Shown here: positions 48,779 to 54,771 of the stretch, piece by piece | Layout: every line of letters begins with the position of its first letter | How positions within the stretch are numbered: position 1 is the stretch's first letter | NCBI GenBank assembly: GCA_951812535.1 | Contig: CATOSK010000005.1 | Coordinates: forward strand, 1-64,000 | Length of the DNA: 64,000 nucleotides | Reading direction: 5' to 3' | DNA from: an uncultured Dehalococcoidia bacterium | GTDB taxonomy: Bacteria; Chloroflexota; Dehalococcoidia; Lucifugimonadales; UBA3495 | Translations under genes and position numbers: made by a program | Notes under the pieces: model-generated | What the model was told of the DNA's origin: nothing | The model's input: the letters and a program-made list of their open reading frames with translations, nothing else | Databases searched by the model: none

Positions 48779-49288
48779 TTAGTTGGAAATCCAACCAGTG
48801 CGAAAGTCCAAGTGGCGTATAAGAGCGAACGTGTTGCACCAGTCAATATTAAAGGCATTGCATACATCTGGGATGTGGCGGTTGGCCCGGGTTTTCTTGG
48901 GCTTCGAAATTTCGTTCGTCACAACGCAGCGGTCAACTACATCCACTAACGCATAAGCAATCAGAAAGGGATCACGGCCTAATTTTTCGACTTCTGCGTC
49001 GGTCAAGTCGTTCGCGTACCCTTCATCAGTCACCAATTCCACGAGATCCCGCCTCACTTCTTCGCCCAAGAGCACGTTTTCCAGATTCTCTCGCAGCCAT
49101 TCGACAACGGCGTCCGCGCGATTAGACCTAGGTAGCATCACTTCTTCGAGTGTTTCCACCGGCAGTTTCAAGAGACCTCTATTGCCCATTTCAGCTAACC
49201 AATCCCAAAATTCGGGAACCCGATCAACGGGGTAATAGTATCGATTGGCATCAATCAATATGTTGGCATCGAGCAGATAAAGCACCAC
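48779..49288 (-). CDS. DUF4411 family PIN-like toxin
   Basis: The 169-residue protein matches DUF4411: LLDANILIDANRYYYPVDRVPEFWDWL (acidic Asp at about 7), PVETLEEVM, GRDPFLIAYAL (second acidic site), VVTNEISKPKKTRANRHIPDVCNAFNIDWCNTFALIRH. PIN-like proteins are Mg-dependent RNases, usually toxins. It starts six bases after the stop of the XRE-ImmA gene, the classic order antitoxin then toxin. Base composition is AT-richer than the surroundings. Confidence 0.9.
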   Translation of the reverse strand: MVLYLLDANILIDANRYYYPVDRVPEFWDWLAEMGNRGLLKLPVETLEEVMLPRSNRADAVVEWLRENLENVLLGEEVRRDLVELVTDEGYANDLTDAEVEKLGRDPFLIAYALVDVVDRCVVTNEISKPKKTRANRHIPDVCNAFNIDWCNTFALIRHLDFRTGWISN

Positions 49289-49294
49289 ACCCGC

Positions 49295-50488
49295 CTAAAA
49301 CGCCCCGTTGGCGTCCAGCAAAGGCTCAACTTGCCTAGGTCTCACGCCAAGAAGTCGTGCCGCCTTAGAAGTCGACAGCGCGTCAGATGCCATCATCGTA
49401 CGAACAAATTCTGTCATCTTTGTTCCCAGTCTGTGGCGACGAACCAAATAGAAACTCGGACCCCCCTCTCGTTCTCGTGCTAAGGCGCGAACCTTCTCCC
49501 GTTCTTCTTTCCATTGCGCCCGGAATGCGGCGTTCAGTTGTCTGAAGTATTCTTGACTAATTAGATCAGATCGGTAGGCGTGATAAGCCACCATGGTACG
49601 GCTGACGTTCGTTTCGGCAGCGAACTGGCTAATCCTTGCGGATATGGTAATGAGGTCATTGCTTTCGTTTAGGTTGAGCTTAAGAAGTTCGTTGCCCGGT
49701 AACAAGAACTCAGCCGCCACCTGATCACAAAACCTCTCTACTTCGTTGTCAGAGTATTCTGAGCTCACTCCAGTTTGACCAAGGATGATATGAACTGTCT
49801 CATGCAGCAATGTAAAAGACCAAGCCGGACGAGCATCTTGATCGTTAATTACTAAGAACGGTGCTACCGTGTCTGCGATAGAGAACCCTCGGAAAACGTT
49901 GACATCGATCGCGGAACGGTAATTCCCCAAATCGCCTTTTAGCAGAACAAAAACCCCCGCGTCTTCAGCACCCTCGCGAAGCAAGTGGAACGCATCCGAT
50001 GCGCTCCGTTCGGAGCGGAATGCGGTCAAAGTCACACCCAATACACTTCGAAGAGACTCCAATACGGTCGGTAGCCCGTCTTCCATTGAGCAAGAACCAA
50101 CAAAACTCAGACGGTCAGCTTCCTCTTCGTCTTCCAGAATAGCTCGAACCATGCTTTGTCGAGCTGTAATGTCCCGAACTAACGTGTCTAGCAACGCGTC
50201 ATCAGACGGGGTATGCTCTGAAGAAAGTGTGCGGAAGTCAATTCCCCGGTTCCCTTTTGGCGGGGGCTTGGACAAATAAAAGGTGAGCAAAGGGCGATGG
50301 TAGACATCCGCCATCTTGACAATCTGGGGACGCGTCGGCTCTTTGACACCCGTCTCCAGAGCCACCATCTTGTCAACTGCGGAGGAACTCCGACTGTCCT
50401 GAAATCCTAGTTTCGTTGCGGCATCAGGTTGAGAAAGGCCAGCGGTTTCCCGTGCCCAAACTAATATCTCTGGATTAACGTTTGGCAT
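49295..50488 (-). CDS. XRE-type regulator fused to ImmA/IrrE metallopeptidase (antitoxin)
   Basis: The 397-residue protein joins an N-terminal HTH (about 7-60; ILVWARETAGLSQPDAATKLGF) to an ImmA/IrrE peptidase domain with HETVH (229-233) and a third ligand region VERFCDQVAAEFLLP. C-terminal residues 345-397 form another HTH-like part (TSKAARLLGVRPRQVEPLLD). This arrangement is the known partner of DUF4411 toxins. It probably represses the operon and controls the toxin by proteolysis. ATG 50488 is chosen; GAGGC precedes it. The whole module is AT-richer than its neighbours, indicating transfer. Confidence 0.9.
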   Translation of the reverse strand: MPNVNPEILVWARETAGLSQPDAATKLGFQDSRSSSAVDKMVALETGVKEPTRPQIVKMADVYHRPLLTFYLSKPPPKGNRGIDFRTLSSEHTPSDDALLDTLVRDITARQSMVRAILEDEEEADRLSFVGSCSMEDGLPTVLESLRSVLGVTLTAFRSERSASDAFHLLREGAEDAGVFVLLKGDLGNYRSAIDVNVFRGFSIADTVAPFLVINDQDARPAWSFTLLHETVHIILGQTGVSSEYSDNEVERFCDQVAAEFLLPGNELLKLNLNESNDLITISARISQFAAETNVSRTMVAYHAYRSDLISQEYFRQLNAAFRAQWKEEREKVRALAREREGGPSFYLVRRHRLGTKMTEFVRTMMASDALSTSKAARLLGVRPRQVEPLLDANGAF

Positions 50489-50552
50489 ATTGGTGCCTCG
50501 GGTCAAGTGCCACGAAAAGCGCATTAACCGTTCGTGTACGGCAGTCCGACTT

Positions 50553-51697: not shown

Positions 51698-51776
51698 GGG
51701 GGGAACCTCCAGGGTCAATTGGAGAAGGCGGGCCTGCTGATGCCTGCCGAATGTCCCGTTATGTACTGGAACCCAC

Positions 51777-51876
51777 CACTATCCGAAAAACCCTCCGACC
51801 AACTCAATGAACCGCTGGGGGTGCTCGACTTCGGGGCGATGGCCGCAGTTGTCGATGATTTCCAGACGGGCACCGG
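51777..51876 (-). pseudogene. Alpha/beta-hydrolase 3'-end duplicate, nearly exact
   Basis: About 100 bases match the last ~100 bases of the hydrolase gene (52327-52426) at an offset of 550 bp, with few differences. It forms one side of the direct repeat that brackets the DUF4258-DUF2283 pair. Confidence 0.8.
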
Positions 51877-51877
51877 G

Positions 51878-52078
51878 TTACCTTTTCTCAAGCTGCAAAT
51901 CTGACAAGTCCAGGTTCGGGGAACGCCGGGAAAGATACAGCATTTCCACTCCCACTACTTCGTTGTCTTTGTTGTAGTCCAGTACTACGCCGGGGGATAC
52001 CTCTTCCGACTCTACTATTGGGGACGTGTCCAGGCGCAGGTACAGAGCGTCGGCCGAACTGTCTATCGTAAGTTTCAT
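51878..52078 (-). CDS. DUF2283 family protein (probable antitoxin of the DUF4258 pair)
   Basis: The 66-residue protein reads MKLTIDSSADALYLRLDTSPIVESEEVSPGVVLDYNKDNEVVGVEMLYLS, the DUF2283 pattern (Y.....D..YI.L, GI..DYD..G.IVGIEIL). It overlaps the DUF4258 gene by 4 bp (ATGA), so translation is coupled. DUF2283 genes commonly follow DUF4258 genes in two-gene modules. ATG 52078 is chosen on that overlap. Confidence 0.85.
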   Translation of the reverse strand: MKLTIDSSADALYLRLDTSPIVESEEVSPGVVLDYNKDNEVVGVEMLYLSRRSPNLDLSDLQLEKR

Positions 52079-52293
52079 TGCAATCCTCTGGCGGCGCTGC
52101 CGAAAAACGTGGTTACTACTCGCCACGGTGTCGCCCTGGTGTTTGCGGCTACCCGTAACACGCGATTGCCAAATTCTGGAATCGGGCCAAAGAAGCGTTC
52201 TACGTCCGGGTCGTTTGGGTCTGGCAGCCGGAGGGATGAATTTTCCAGGACTCTTTCTACCCACTCCGGCAGAATTTCCCGCTCACCCATCAT
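52075..52293 (-). CDS. DUF4258 family protein (probable toxin), N-terminus possibly truncated
   Basis: The 72-residue protein contains the DUF4258 helix and strand pattern (EREILPEWVERVLENSS, VLRVAANTRATPWRVVTTFF). In the same frame upstream of the ATG the DNA still encodes DLRYTVHALSMM, which resembles the normal family start (R.T.HA..RM), but no in-frame start codon exists before the hydrolase stop. The junction with the hydrolase 3' end may have removed the true start. Confidence 0.75.
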   Translation of the reverse strand: MMGEREILPEWVERVLENSSLRLPDPNDPDVERFFGPIPEFGNRVLRVAANTRATPWRVVTTFFGSAARGLQ

Positions 52294-52328
52294 GCTTAAG
52301 GCATGTACGGTGTATCTTAAGTCCGCCG

Positions 52329-53126
52329 CTATCCGAAAAACCCTCCGACCAACTCAATGAACCGCTGGGGGTGCTCGACCTCCGGGCGATGGCCGCAGTT
52401 GTCGATGATTTCCAGGCGCGAGTTGGGGATGGAGTCGTGGTAGAGCTGTCCGGCGCTTAGGGGGACTATGGGGTCTTCGCGGCCCCAGACGATCATGGTG
52501 GGCAGGCGCTTGAGACGTCCCAGCAGGTTGGGCAGCGCCGGGTAGTGCATGTAGGGACGCCAGCTCAGGCGGCAGGAACCTTCCAGGGACGTTTCCCAGT
52601 TTTCCATCTGCTCGGGGGAGGGCTCGTCGGGGCAGATGCTCTGGAACTCTTCCACCGCGTCCGGGTCCAGCAGGCTGCCGGTGATGTAGGCCTTGGCCAC
52701 CACCTGGAAGATGTCGAAGATCTCGCCCTCCGGCGGGCGCACTCCGGCGGCGGCGACCAGCGCGAGGCGCTTGAACTGCTGGGGACACATGACCGCCATC
52801 TCGGCGGCCAGCCAGCCGCCCAGCGAGAACCCAAGAACGTCGACACCCTCCAGCCCCAGGTCGTCCAGGGCGCCGAGATACCATCCCGCGAGGTCGTGGA
52901 GGTTCATCACCCAGTCCATCTCGTCGGAGTCTCCGAATCCGGGATGCCAGGGGATGTAGAGGGTGTGATTCTCGGCCAGGGCCTGGTGGTATCGCAGCCA
53001 GCCGGGGTGGCCCATTTCGTCGTGCAGAATCAGCAGCGGGTCCCCGGAACCGCCCTTGATGAGCTTGATCTGGGCGCCGGCTACGGTGACCATTTCTTCG
53101 GTAAAGGTGGTGGATGCGGCGGTCAT
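52329..53126 (-). CDS. Alpha/beta hydrolase
   Basis: The 265-residue protein has the alpha/beta-hydrolase core: LLILHDEMGHPGWL oxyanion region, nucleophile elbow GFSLGGW (Ser about 100), acid in VWGREDPIVPL (Asp about 219), and catalytic His in NCGHRPEVEHP (about 247). Substrate unknown; sequence style matches C-C-bond hydrolases and esterases of aromatic catabolism. Its final 100 bp recur twice more downstream. ATG 53126 with AAGGAG upstream. Confidence 0.9.
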   Translation of the reverse strand: MTAASTTFTEEMVTVAGAQIKLIKGGSGDPLLILHDEMGHPGWLRYHQALAENHTLYIPWHPGFGDSDEMDWVMNLHDLAGWYLGALDDLGLEGVDVLGFSLGGWLAAEMAVMCPQQFKRLALVAAAGVRPPEGEIFDIFQVVAKAYITGSLLDPDAVEEFQSICPDEPSPEQMENWETSLEGSCRLSWRPYMHYPALPNLLGRLKRLPTMIVWGREDPIVPLSAGQLYHDSIPNSRLEIIDNCGHRPEVEHPQRFIELVGGFFG

Positions 53127-53316
53127 GGAAACTCCTTAGCGAAACGAGCATACGCTCCGGCGCGAGGGGCCGGAGGGGTGGTTCGGGGGGGTTGGGTTGA
53201 TTGTCAGAGAGGGGACAACGGTTGTCAAGGATTGGGGGTGGGGCAGCACATGGATGTGCTGGAAGGGCACAAGATCATTTCACGAGCAGCCCCTAAGACA
53301 ACGAAGAGATGTGGGT

Positions 53317-53664
53317 TTATACTTTTTCTAAGGCAGCGATAAACTCATCGAGTTGACCACTCACATTAAGTGCGTGCCACCTAGCCTTGGTGTAAAGCTC
53401 CCGAAGTTTGTTAGCTTTGACCTCGTTTTCACCCGTGGACGTGTAGTCGATTTGCTTGTTTTTGCTATCACGGATGCGGAGGGTTACCCTCTCGTCAAAT
53501 TCACCATATGGCCCGTATTGAGGGGAGTCCTTGGAAATACTTACAGATAACTCCCCAATCCGAACTACAAACTCGTTCCTGTCCATACTGGGTGCTTCCC
53601 AAGACACTTTGCCCTGTTCGGTACGCTCAAGCAATCTAACCGCAACTTCAGAAATTTTGGGCAT
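53317..53664 (-). CDS. Small uncharacterised protein, paralogue of the adjacent upstream gene
   Basis: The 115-residue protein begins with a helix (MPKISEVAVRLLERTEQGKVSWE), has a beta-rich middle (EFVVRIGELSVSIS, RVTLRIRDSKNKQIDYT) and ends in helices with LRELYTKARWHALNVSGQLDEFIAALE. The gene at 53757 has the same layout (LLERTLQEKIWW; FSVLYKNARRVALNIDQQLDGLLGDL). I have seen this general type as an uncharacterised small-protein family but cannot name it. ATG 53664 is chosen as the paralogue-matching start. Confidence 0.75.
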   Translation of the reverse strand: MPKISEVAVRLLERTEQGKVSWEAPSMDRNEFVVRIGELSVSISKDSPQYGPYGEFDERVTLRIRDSKNKQIDYTSTGENEVKANKLRELYTKARWHALNVSGQLDEFIAALEKV

Positions 53665-53756
53665 TTTCGTCCTCGATCGGTCCACAGAAACTAGACCCAC
53701 ACTAAGTTATCGCCTGGAAGTCTGAACGGCAGTCCAAAATACCAGGATGACCTTGA

Positions 53757-54095
53757 CTATGTTTGGCTAAGATCCCCAAGCAGGCCATCCAACTGTTGGT
53801 CAATATTTAAAGCAACCCGTCTTGCATTCTTGTACAGAACACTGAACTTATCACCTATTTCGCTAGGTTCTAGCGTATCAGCGCCATAACTTTCGACTTC
53901 CCCTCCTTCCTTATCGAGTATCTGGAGAAGAACACCCTCTTCAGGATAAGAAGGGTGCTGGTGAAGCGACACTACCGCAGAAAAATCCCCTACCACTGCG
54001 ACGAAGGATGTCTCGACGGCGGTGGGCTTCCACCAAATCTTTTCTTGTAGAGTCCGCTCCAATAACTTGTCGAACACTTGAGCCATTTCTGCCAT
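53757..54095 (-). CDS. Small uncharacterised protein, paralogue of 53317-53664
   Basis: The 112-residue protein shares the layout of the next gene: helix with LLERTLQEKIWWKP, beta-rich centre (SFVAVVGDFSAVVS, GVLLQILDKEGGEVESYG), C-terminal helices. It begins one base after the stop of the membrane protein gene (54097), so all three genes form one transcription unit. The two small proteins may form a heterodimer; this is inferred from tandem paralogy. Confidence 0.75.
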   Translation of the reverse strand: MAEMAQVFDKLLERTLQEKIWWKPTAVETSFVAVVGDFSAVVSLHQHPSYPEEGVLLQILDKEGGEVESYGADTLEPSEIGDKFSVLYKNARRVALNIDQQLDGLLGDLSQT

Positions 54096-54096
54096 A

Positions 54097-54615
54097 TCAG
54101 TTACTCAACTGGACCCCAGTAAAATAAGTCGAACTTGCTAAAGACTGTAAGCTGGTCTGGATCTCATTCAGCTTTTCGTCGAATTCACCGACTCGAGACG
54201 GGTCGGTCCCTTCGCGTAACGCTCTTACAACCGCGTTTTCCATCGCCGCCAGTTGGGGTATCGCTTCCTTGAGGATCAAGGATTGGGTCTCAGTCAACGG
54301 GGAATGTCTTTCCGCAATGTCAGATACTGTAGAACGCAACGGCTGGTAGTTCTCCAGGCAAGCTTCCCAACTCTCCTCCCGATGCAACAGTTTGAGGCGC
54401 TGGATGGCAGATATTGCCTTCTGTAAATCAACCACGGTCAAAATGTTGGTTAGGCTATCTTGGGTTTTCTGGCTGGCTCTCTCTGATGCATCGGCGGCAG
54501 TTCTGGCTTTACGCGCTTGGATGAATGCGCCGATGCTAAAAACAACACCAATCGCCGAAAATATCAAAGCGGCTATGTTGACGACAGCTTCCCAGTTAGC
54601 CACGAAAAAATCCAT
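54097..54615 (-). CDS. Single-span membrane protein with long helical cytoplasmic domain
   Basis: The 172-residue protein has one transmembrane helix (about 10-32; VNIAALIFSAIGVVFSIGAF), then a basic/coiled-coil region (QARKARTAADASERASQKTQDSL) and a helical domain (VDLQKAISAIQRLKLLHREESWEACLENYQPLRSTVSDI) to the end. I chose ATG 54615 with GGTGGA upstream; TATAAT lies 20-25 bases before it. It heads the three-gene operon 54615-53317. No known family is assigned. Confidence 0.75.
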   Translation of the reverse strand: MDFFVANWEAVVNIAALIFSAIGVVFSIGAFIQARKARTAADASERASQKTQDSLTNILTVVDLQKAISAIQRLKLLHREESWEACLENYQPLRSTVSDIAERHSPLTETQSLILKEAIPQLAAMENAVVRALREGTDPSRVGEFDEKLNEIQTSLQSLASSTYFTGVQLSN

Positions 54616-54735
54616 AGGTTCCACCGATATTATACAACCCTGCACTCGCGGGACGTCCCTATAGATGACCGTTGCTCTACCCAACTGCCGCGACCGTCCT
54701 GCATCGAGTAAGACGGCCGGATGGGTTTAGACAAC

Positions 54736-54771
54736 GAACCGCCCGCCCTGGCACCCCAGGGCGGGCGGTTC
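54736..54771. terminator. Perfect 16-bp bidirectional hairpin
   Basis: GAACCGCCCGCCCTGG (54736-54751) pairs with CCAGGGCGGGCGGTTC (54756-54771). It lies between two minus-strand genes, after the zinc-ribbon gene stop (54813), so it most likely terminates that gene. Confidence 0.75.

Follow-up and report, generated by a model that had tools for sequence, protein, structure and literature searches.

A patchily distributed membrane-anchored two-protein module in Dehalococcoidia with a possible conflict or stress role

This study identified two protein families, here designated mem and sm, that are near-obligate neighbours in their genomes; taken together, the evidence favours a dedicated unit of two proteins, distributed patchily across Dehalococcoidia. 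The starting point was an operon in a 64,000-nucleotide stretch of DNA from an uncultured Dehalococcoidia bacterium (hereafter the window). On balance, we tentatively read this operon as a copy of a mobile, membrane-anchored two-protein accessory module, most likely with a role in conflict or stress.

The operon comprises three genes, all on the minus strand. The gene mem (54097 to 54615, with its ATG at 54615 and its stop at 54097) encodes 172 amino acids and is followed after 1 bp by smA (53757 to 54095, 112 amino acids). The third gene, smB (53317 to 53664), lies 92 bp downstream of smA and encodes 115 amino acids when read from its ATG, and an in-frame GTG at 53700 is a possible alternative start. 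The open reading frame calls therefore agreed with the original prediction of a tightly packed, co-oriented trio. The GC content was 47-52% over 53250 to 54750 compared with approximately 58-66% in the surroundings, which also agreed with the proposed AT-richer island. A possible promoter region (54616 to 54660, minus strand) was read in the sequence as a TATAAT hexamer located approximately 14-19 nt before the mem start codon; a good -35 element was lacking, and the candidate is weak because the hexamer was absent from the matches of a consensus scan. A search for RNA families and tRNAs at the locus found none, which argues against a tRNA integration site. The left flank of the operon, comprising a hydrolase gene and a DUF2283/DUF4258 pair, was common to relatives, in which the operon and its right flank were missing beside it.

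The two nearby toxin-antitoxin-like modules that had been proposed were both recognised by Pfam, and they are described here as context outside the mem-sm module. The first is a DUF4258/DUF2283 pair (51878 to 52293, minus strand), in which DUF2283 matched with an E value of 6e-17 and DUF4258 with one of 4.3e-5, the latter falling just below its own cut-off. The second is a DUF4411/HTH-M78 peptidase pair (48779 to 50524, minus strand; DUF4411, E 6.5e-30; Peptidase_M78, E 5.8e-11). A 96-bp direct repeat, 95% identical between its copies, lies on either side of the DUF4258/DUF2283 pair (51773 to 51868 and 52323 to 52418) and takes in the 3' terminal part of the alpha/beta hydrolase gene (52329 to 53126). 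The pair seems to be an insertion at the end of the hydrolase gene that duplicated this end, and a similar arrangement was observed in two loci of relatives (L082 and L085).

Searches of Pfam, NCBIfam, and PADLOC returned nothing significant for mem, smA, or smB, and PADLOC matched none of its families to any of the three proteins at E values up to 10. Pfam searches with further family members (13 of mem and 26 of sm) revealed nothing consistent, PHROGs gave no match for sm, PDB sequences gave no significant match, and no relatives were found in the plasmid and viral collections. No enzymatic or pore feature was recognisable in mem, and no DNA-binding or other antitoxin domain was recognisable in sm. 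Assignment to a known family was rejected on the basis of the sequence searches of Pfam, NCBIfam, PADLOC, PHROGs, and PDB, and no clear homology to a housekeeping family, which would have spoken against the proposed role, emerged from the first four of these.

We then analysed how consistently the genes occur together. With mem as the query, a match was found in 14 of 59 near genomes, and each of these loci carried an sm-like open reading frame directly downstream on the same strand, although with a weak score in a few. When family profiles were run across the order, 33 of 250 genomes had mem and 31 of 247 had sm. Among the approximately 250 genomes, sm stood directly downstream of 31 of the 32 full-length mem genes, and mem stood upstream of 34 of the 38 sm matches, a result that answers the co-occurrence question raised by the original prediction in favour of mem and sm. 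The lone unpaired mem was a second copy in one genome (G411), with a weakly sm-like open reading frame in the expected place (E 1.1). The unpaired sm genes were those of G457 and G413, one copy in G426, and that of G518, which is a contig-end case; in G456, mem was merely truncated by the end of the contig. The pairing persisted in families with only 24-33% identity to the window mem (f3, f97, f118, and f121) and was also observed, at twilight similarity, in other orders of the class. One pattern scan retrieved Chloroflexota only, the named relatives being Dehalococcoidia, SAR202, and Chloroflexota metagenome-assembled genomes. In a 400-genome sample of the phylum, the sm profile matched the window genome alone, the order being sparsely represented there. 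Similar small proteins presumably occur in other phyla.

The two genes were also closely spaced and co-inherited. The distance from the mem stop to the sm start ranged from -8 to +19 bp, with a 4-bp overlap in 7 of 19 cases. The evolutionary distances of mem and sm were correlated (r 0.785), and 0 of 999 permutations gave a value as high; this correlation indicates co-inheritance rather than binding, and shared species history can also yield it. Synonymous change greatly exceeded non-synonymous change in every measurable pair, many pairs being saturated, and dN/dS in the measurable pairs was approximately 0.09-0.19 for mem, with most sm values at 0.08-0.37. That the three genes are hypothetical open reading frames brought together by chance would be consistent with the lack of any database family, yet the pairing in 31 of 32 cases, the coupled spacing, the purifying selection, and the high-confidence predicted folds render this explanation extremely improbable; the pairing statistics and the selection rule it out.

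The two small proteins had been predicted to be paralogues, and BLASTP supported this relation, aligning smA with smB at 33% identity and 51% positives (E 2e-13); a whole-genome search with smA also retrieved smB. The trio as such did not prove to be the conserved unit, because elsewhere mem is accompanied by one sm. A single sm is the rule, and tandem sm genes were found in the window and at one further locus (L014), which indicates that the tandem arrangement recurs. In the tree, smB was placed near smA, yet the split between them was as deep as that between copies of different genera, suggesting either an old duplication or the derivation of smB from another copy. The conserved unit is thus the mem-sm pair, with a second sm, probably an old duplicate, present only occasionally.

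The distribution of the pair was uneven even among close relatives. Within the genus g226, the small gene was present in 7 of 14 genomes and absent from the other 7. In one genome (G464), the pair lies inside an insert of approximately 6.76 kb (5543 to 12301 of L070), and in at least five congeners (G400, G424, G463, G429, and G457) the genes flanking the insert lie next to each other, with alignments ending only 26-31 bp apart; this empty-site comparison was repeated for G400 and G424. A further genome (G462) carries a single PaREP1-like gene at the same site. Together with the junctions in G400, G424, G462, and G415 (L076, L077, L079, and L080), this shows one intergenic site that, depending on the species, is empty, occupied by one PaREP1 gene, or occupied by the 6.8-kb island. 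This site is an insertion hot spot, and no integrase was recognised within the 6.8-kb island. Copies of mem split by a frameshift or stop beside an open sm were observed at L019 (1495 to 2008), L108, L042, and L043; such broken copies fit accessory genes and may be pseudogenes, with assembly errors as a possible alternative.

In addition to the pair, the G464 insert carries PaREP1 in three copies, a fusion of a DNA methylase with HNH, and a second HNH protein. The PaREP1 genes stand in tandem (L070, 6290 to 7588) as 434-bp units that are 81-84% identical, and the HNH part of the methylase fusion recurs 1.2 kb downstream in a separate gene at 95% identity (L070, 8558 to 11144). In L063 and, as judged by eye, in L030 and L037, sm is likewise followed by a lone HNH gene. 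PaREP1 is a family of the HEPN superfamily that has been discussed alongside conflict systems (PMC3710099), and it was close to the pair or to an orphan sm in four of the seven g226 loci. Because PaREP1 has been amplified in this family, with 11-52 copies in each genome, this link is suggestive at most. PaREP1 was rejected as an obligate partner, because its proximity to the pair is confined to genus g226 and its genes are common in these genomes.

This context bears on two quite different explanations of the module. In the first, the pair would be an anti-phage system in which sm detects a product of infection and triggers damage or depolarisation of the membrane by mem. The G464 insert with its methylase-HNH and HEPN-family genes, the fast evolution of the small partner, and the two toxin-antitoxin-like modules near the window copy are consistent with such a system, whereas the lack of any PADLOC match and of a consistent defence-island context, with an island insert in G464 but mixed or housekeeping neighbours elsewhere, argue against it, and we regard it as unlikely. 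Among the further neighbours were a viperin-like gene and the metabolic MFS, MmgE/PrpD, and luciferase-like genes, and copies in other orders adjoin housekeeping genes, with moeA and pheS recognised by eye from the sequence. The defence or stress role suggested for the operon by the original prediction thus fared unevenly: the accessory, island-like behaviour was partly supported by the patchiness, the 6.8-kb polymorphic insert, and the broken copies, but defence itself was not supported, given the absence of a PADLOC match and the many metabolic or housekeeping loci.

In the second explanation, the pair would be a membrane adaptor outside biological conflict, with mem as a scaffold and sm as its subunit in a dispensable, patchily distributed function related to envelope stress, lipids, or transport. 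The many loci among metabolic and housekeeping genes fit this account, as do the lack of a toxin or enzyme signature in mem and sm and the generic nature of the mem bundle. The presence/absence polymorphism involving a multi-gene insert, the copies with stops, the linkage to PaREP1, HNH, and methylase genes in g226, and the patchiness even inside one genus weigh against it. We consider this explanation a serious contender, though doubtful; the likelihood of an accessory membrane function unrelated to conflict comes close to that of a conflict or stress role.

To characterise the proteins further, AlphaFold2 models were built from 26 sequences for sm and 20 for mem. The mem model (pLDDT 89.6) comprised helices at residues 2-79, 83-103, 109-134, and 145-171, and a single transmembrane helix was predicted at a hydrophobic stretch of approximately residues 14-32. 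The protein is confidently predicted to consist of one membrane helix that continues into a four-helix bundle. The earlier description as a membrane coiled-coil protein therefore fits the predicted single transmembrane helix, but the helical part is better described as a bundle than as a coiled coil. The charges flanking the transmembrane helix of the window mem were -2/+3, corresponding to an N-out/C-in orientation; among 19 members, the net charge before the helix was 0 to -2 and that of the next 20 residues was mostly positive (-1 to +4). Under the positive-inside rule, these charges suggest that the bundle is cytoplasmic. The sm model (pLDDT 91.8) displayed one helix, four strands, and two helices (alpha-beta4-alpha-alpha), and the most conserved positions of sm were W22, A91, L109, and L11.

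Structural comparisons yielded nothing firm for sm (best Foldseek E values of 0.046 against PDB and 0.0011 against BFVD; VIA Z scores of at most 4.5), and Foldseek and VIA returned only generic bundles for mem, with Z scores inside the stated noise range for such shapes. The lack of a structure match for either protein is no proof of a new fold. The four-helix-bundle sensor domains of NarQ, PcaY_PP, and Adeh_2942 resemble mem in having a helical bundle beside a transmembrane helix (VIA Z 12.5-12.9 over approximately 120-139 residues, within the noise range), but their bundles are periplasmic, whereas that of mem is predicted to be cytoplasmic from the charge bias. Nor is mem predicted to follow the two-transmembrane periplasmic bundle plan, having one N-terminal hydrophobic segment with the positive charges on the bundle side. 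In sm, a helix follows an antiparallel sheet of four strands, which recalls the beta4-alpha domains of PUR/Whirly type and the ChuX/HutX-like folds (matches to PURA, Whirly, and HutX), but the scores were weak (Foldseek E values no better than 0.06; Z scores not above 4.5) and there is no sequence relation.

Among described systems, the closest analogue that we found is EACC1, a membrane conflict system of two genes (PMC7159879). Both are two-gene operons with a sporadic distribution, in which the 5' gene encodes a small protein with a single transmembrane helix; EACC1 has small residues near the centre of this helix and mem a near-invariant glycine at about the same place, and EACC1 has been proposed to act as a membrane sensor (PMC7159879). 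However, EACC1 has alpha+beta extensions, whereas the mem model is an all-helical bundle, and the EACC1 domain was absent from the Pfam matches listed for mem and 12 relatives. The partner of EACC1 is a caspase-superfamily protein (or cyclase) with variable C-terminal effectors, whereas sm has approximately 110 residues and no enzyme domain; no caspase-superfamily or cyclase domain was found in sm, the gene that stands directly downstream of mem in all but one of the full-length cases.

It must also be weighed whether the pair is a classical two-gene toxin-antitoxin module, mem being the membrane toxin and sm its antitoxin. Like type II toxin-antitoxin systems, mem and sm are small, tightly coupled, mobile, patchily distributed genes with decaying copies. 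In addition, sm diverges faster than mem (mean tree distance 4.03 versus 2.73), 4 of 38 sm genes are orphans, as expected of a surviving antitoxin, and some mem copies are broken. Full-length mem lacking sm, which would speak against this reading if common, was rare (1 of 32). Against this, neither protein has a toxin, antitoxin, or DNA-binding domain according to Pfam, NCBIfam, and PADLOC, and the bundle of mem is conserved. To our knowledge, the known single-helix membrane toxins are smaller than mem, which also counts against this reading. The type II comparison therefore fits the pair in layout only; we assign the pair to neither this class nor EACC1, and we judge a classical module improbable, if slightly less so than the anti-phage sensor.

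On the basis of these findings, we return to the mobile accessory module as our preferred, if tentative, reading; its mobility and the faster divergence of sm make a conflict or stress role the most likely use, whereas the mixed, metabolic, and housekeeping neighbours, the lack of a PADLOC, Pfam, or NCBIfam match or of a functionally characterised relative, and the lack of a recognisable enzymatic or pore feature in mem weigh against this reading. In the mechanism that we propose, mem would be held by one N-out/C-in transmembrane helix, with its four-helix bundle presumably facing the cytoplasm. Translated by coupling from the shared message, sm would dock on this bundle as the dedicated partner of mem. 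There, sm might silence mem or, more speculatively, detect a trigger, and its release or rearrangement could free mem to act at the membrane in a manner resembling toxin-antitoxin or abortive-infection systems, the membrane action being speculative as well. The window mem may bear two different partners, smA and smB, and mixed complexes could form.

These findings describe two families with confident models and no database name, whose genes almost always stand side by side across a deep class of bacteria. A bolder proposal, which we consider possible but on the whole unlikely, is that mem-sm constitutes an undescribed two-gene conflict system in which a membrane-anchored helical effector is paired with a small regulator that evolves fast; such a system would be widespread in Dehalococcoidia, would probably extend beyond this class, and would gain combinatorial control from its duplicated regulators. 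If the pair is a conflict system, it would contribute a compact module that acts at the membrane, from an ocean and sponge group with few cultured members; if it is not, the pair would still be a clear target, with two families in need of a name and a simple candidate complex of two proteins.
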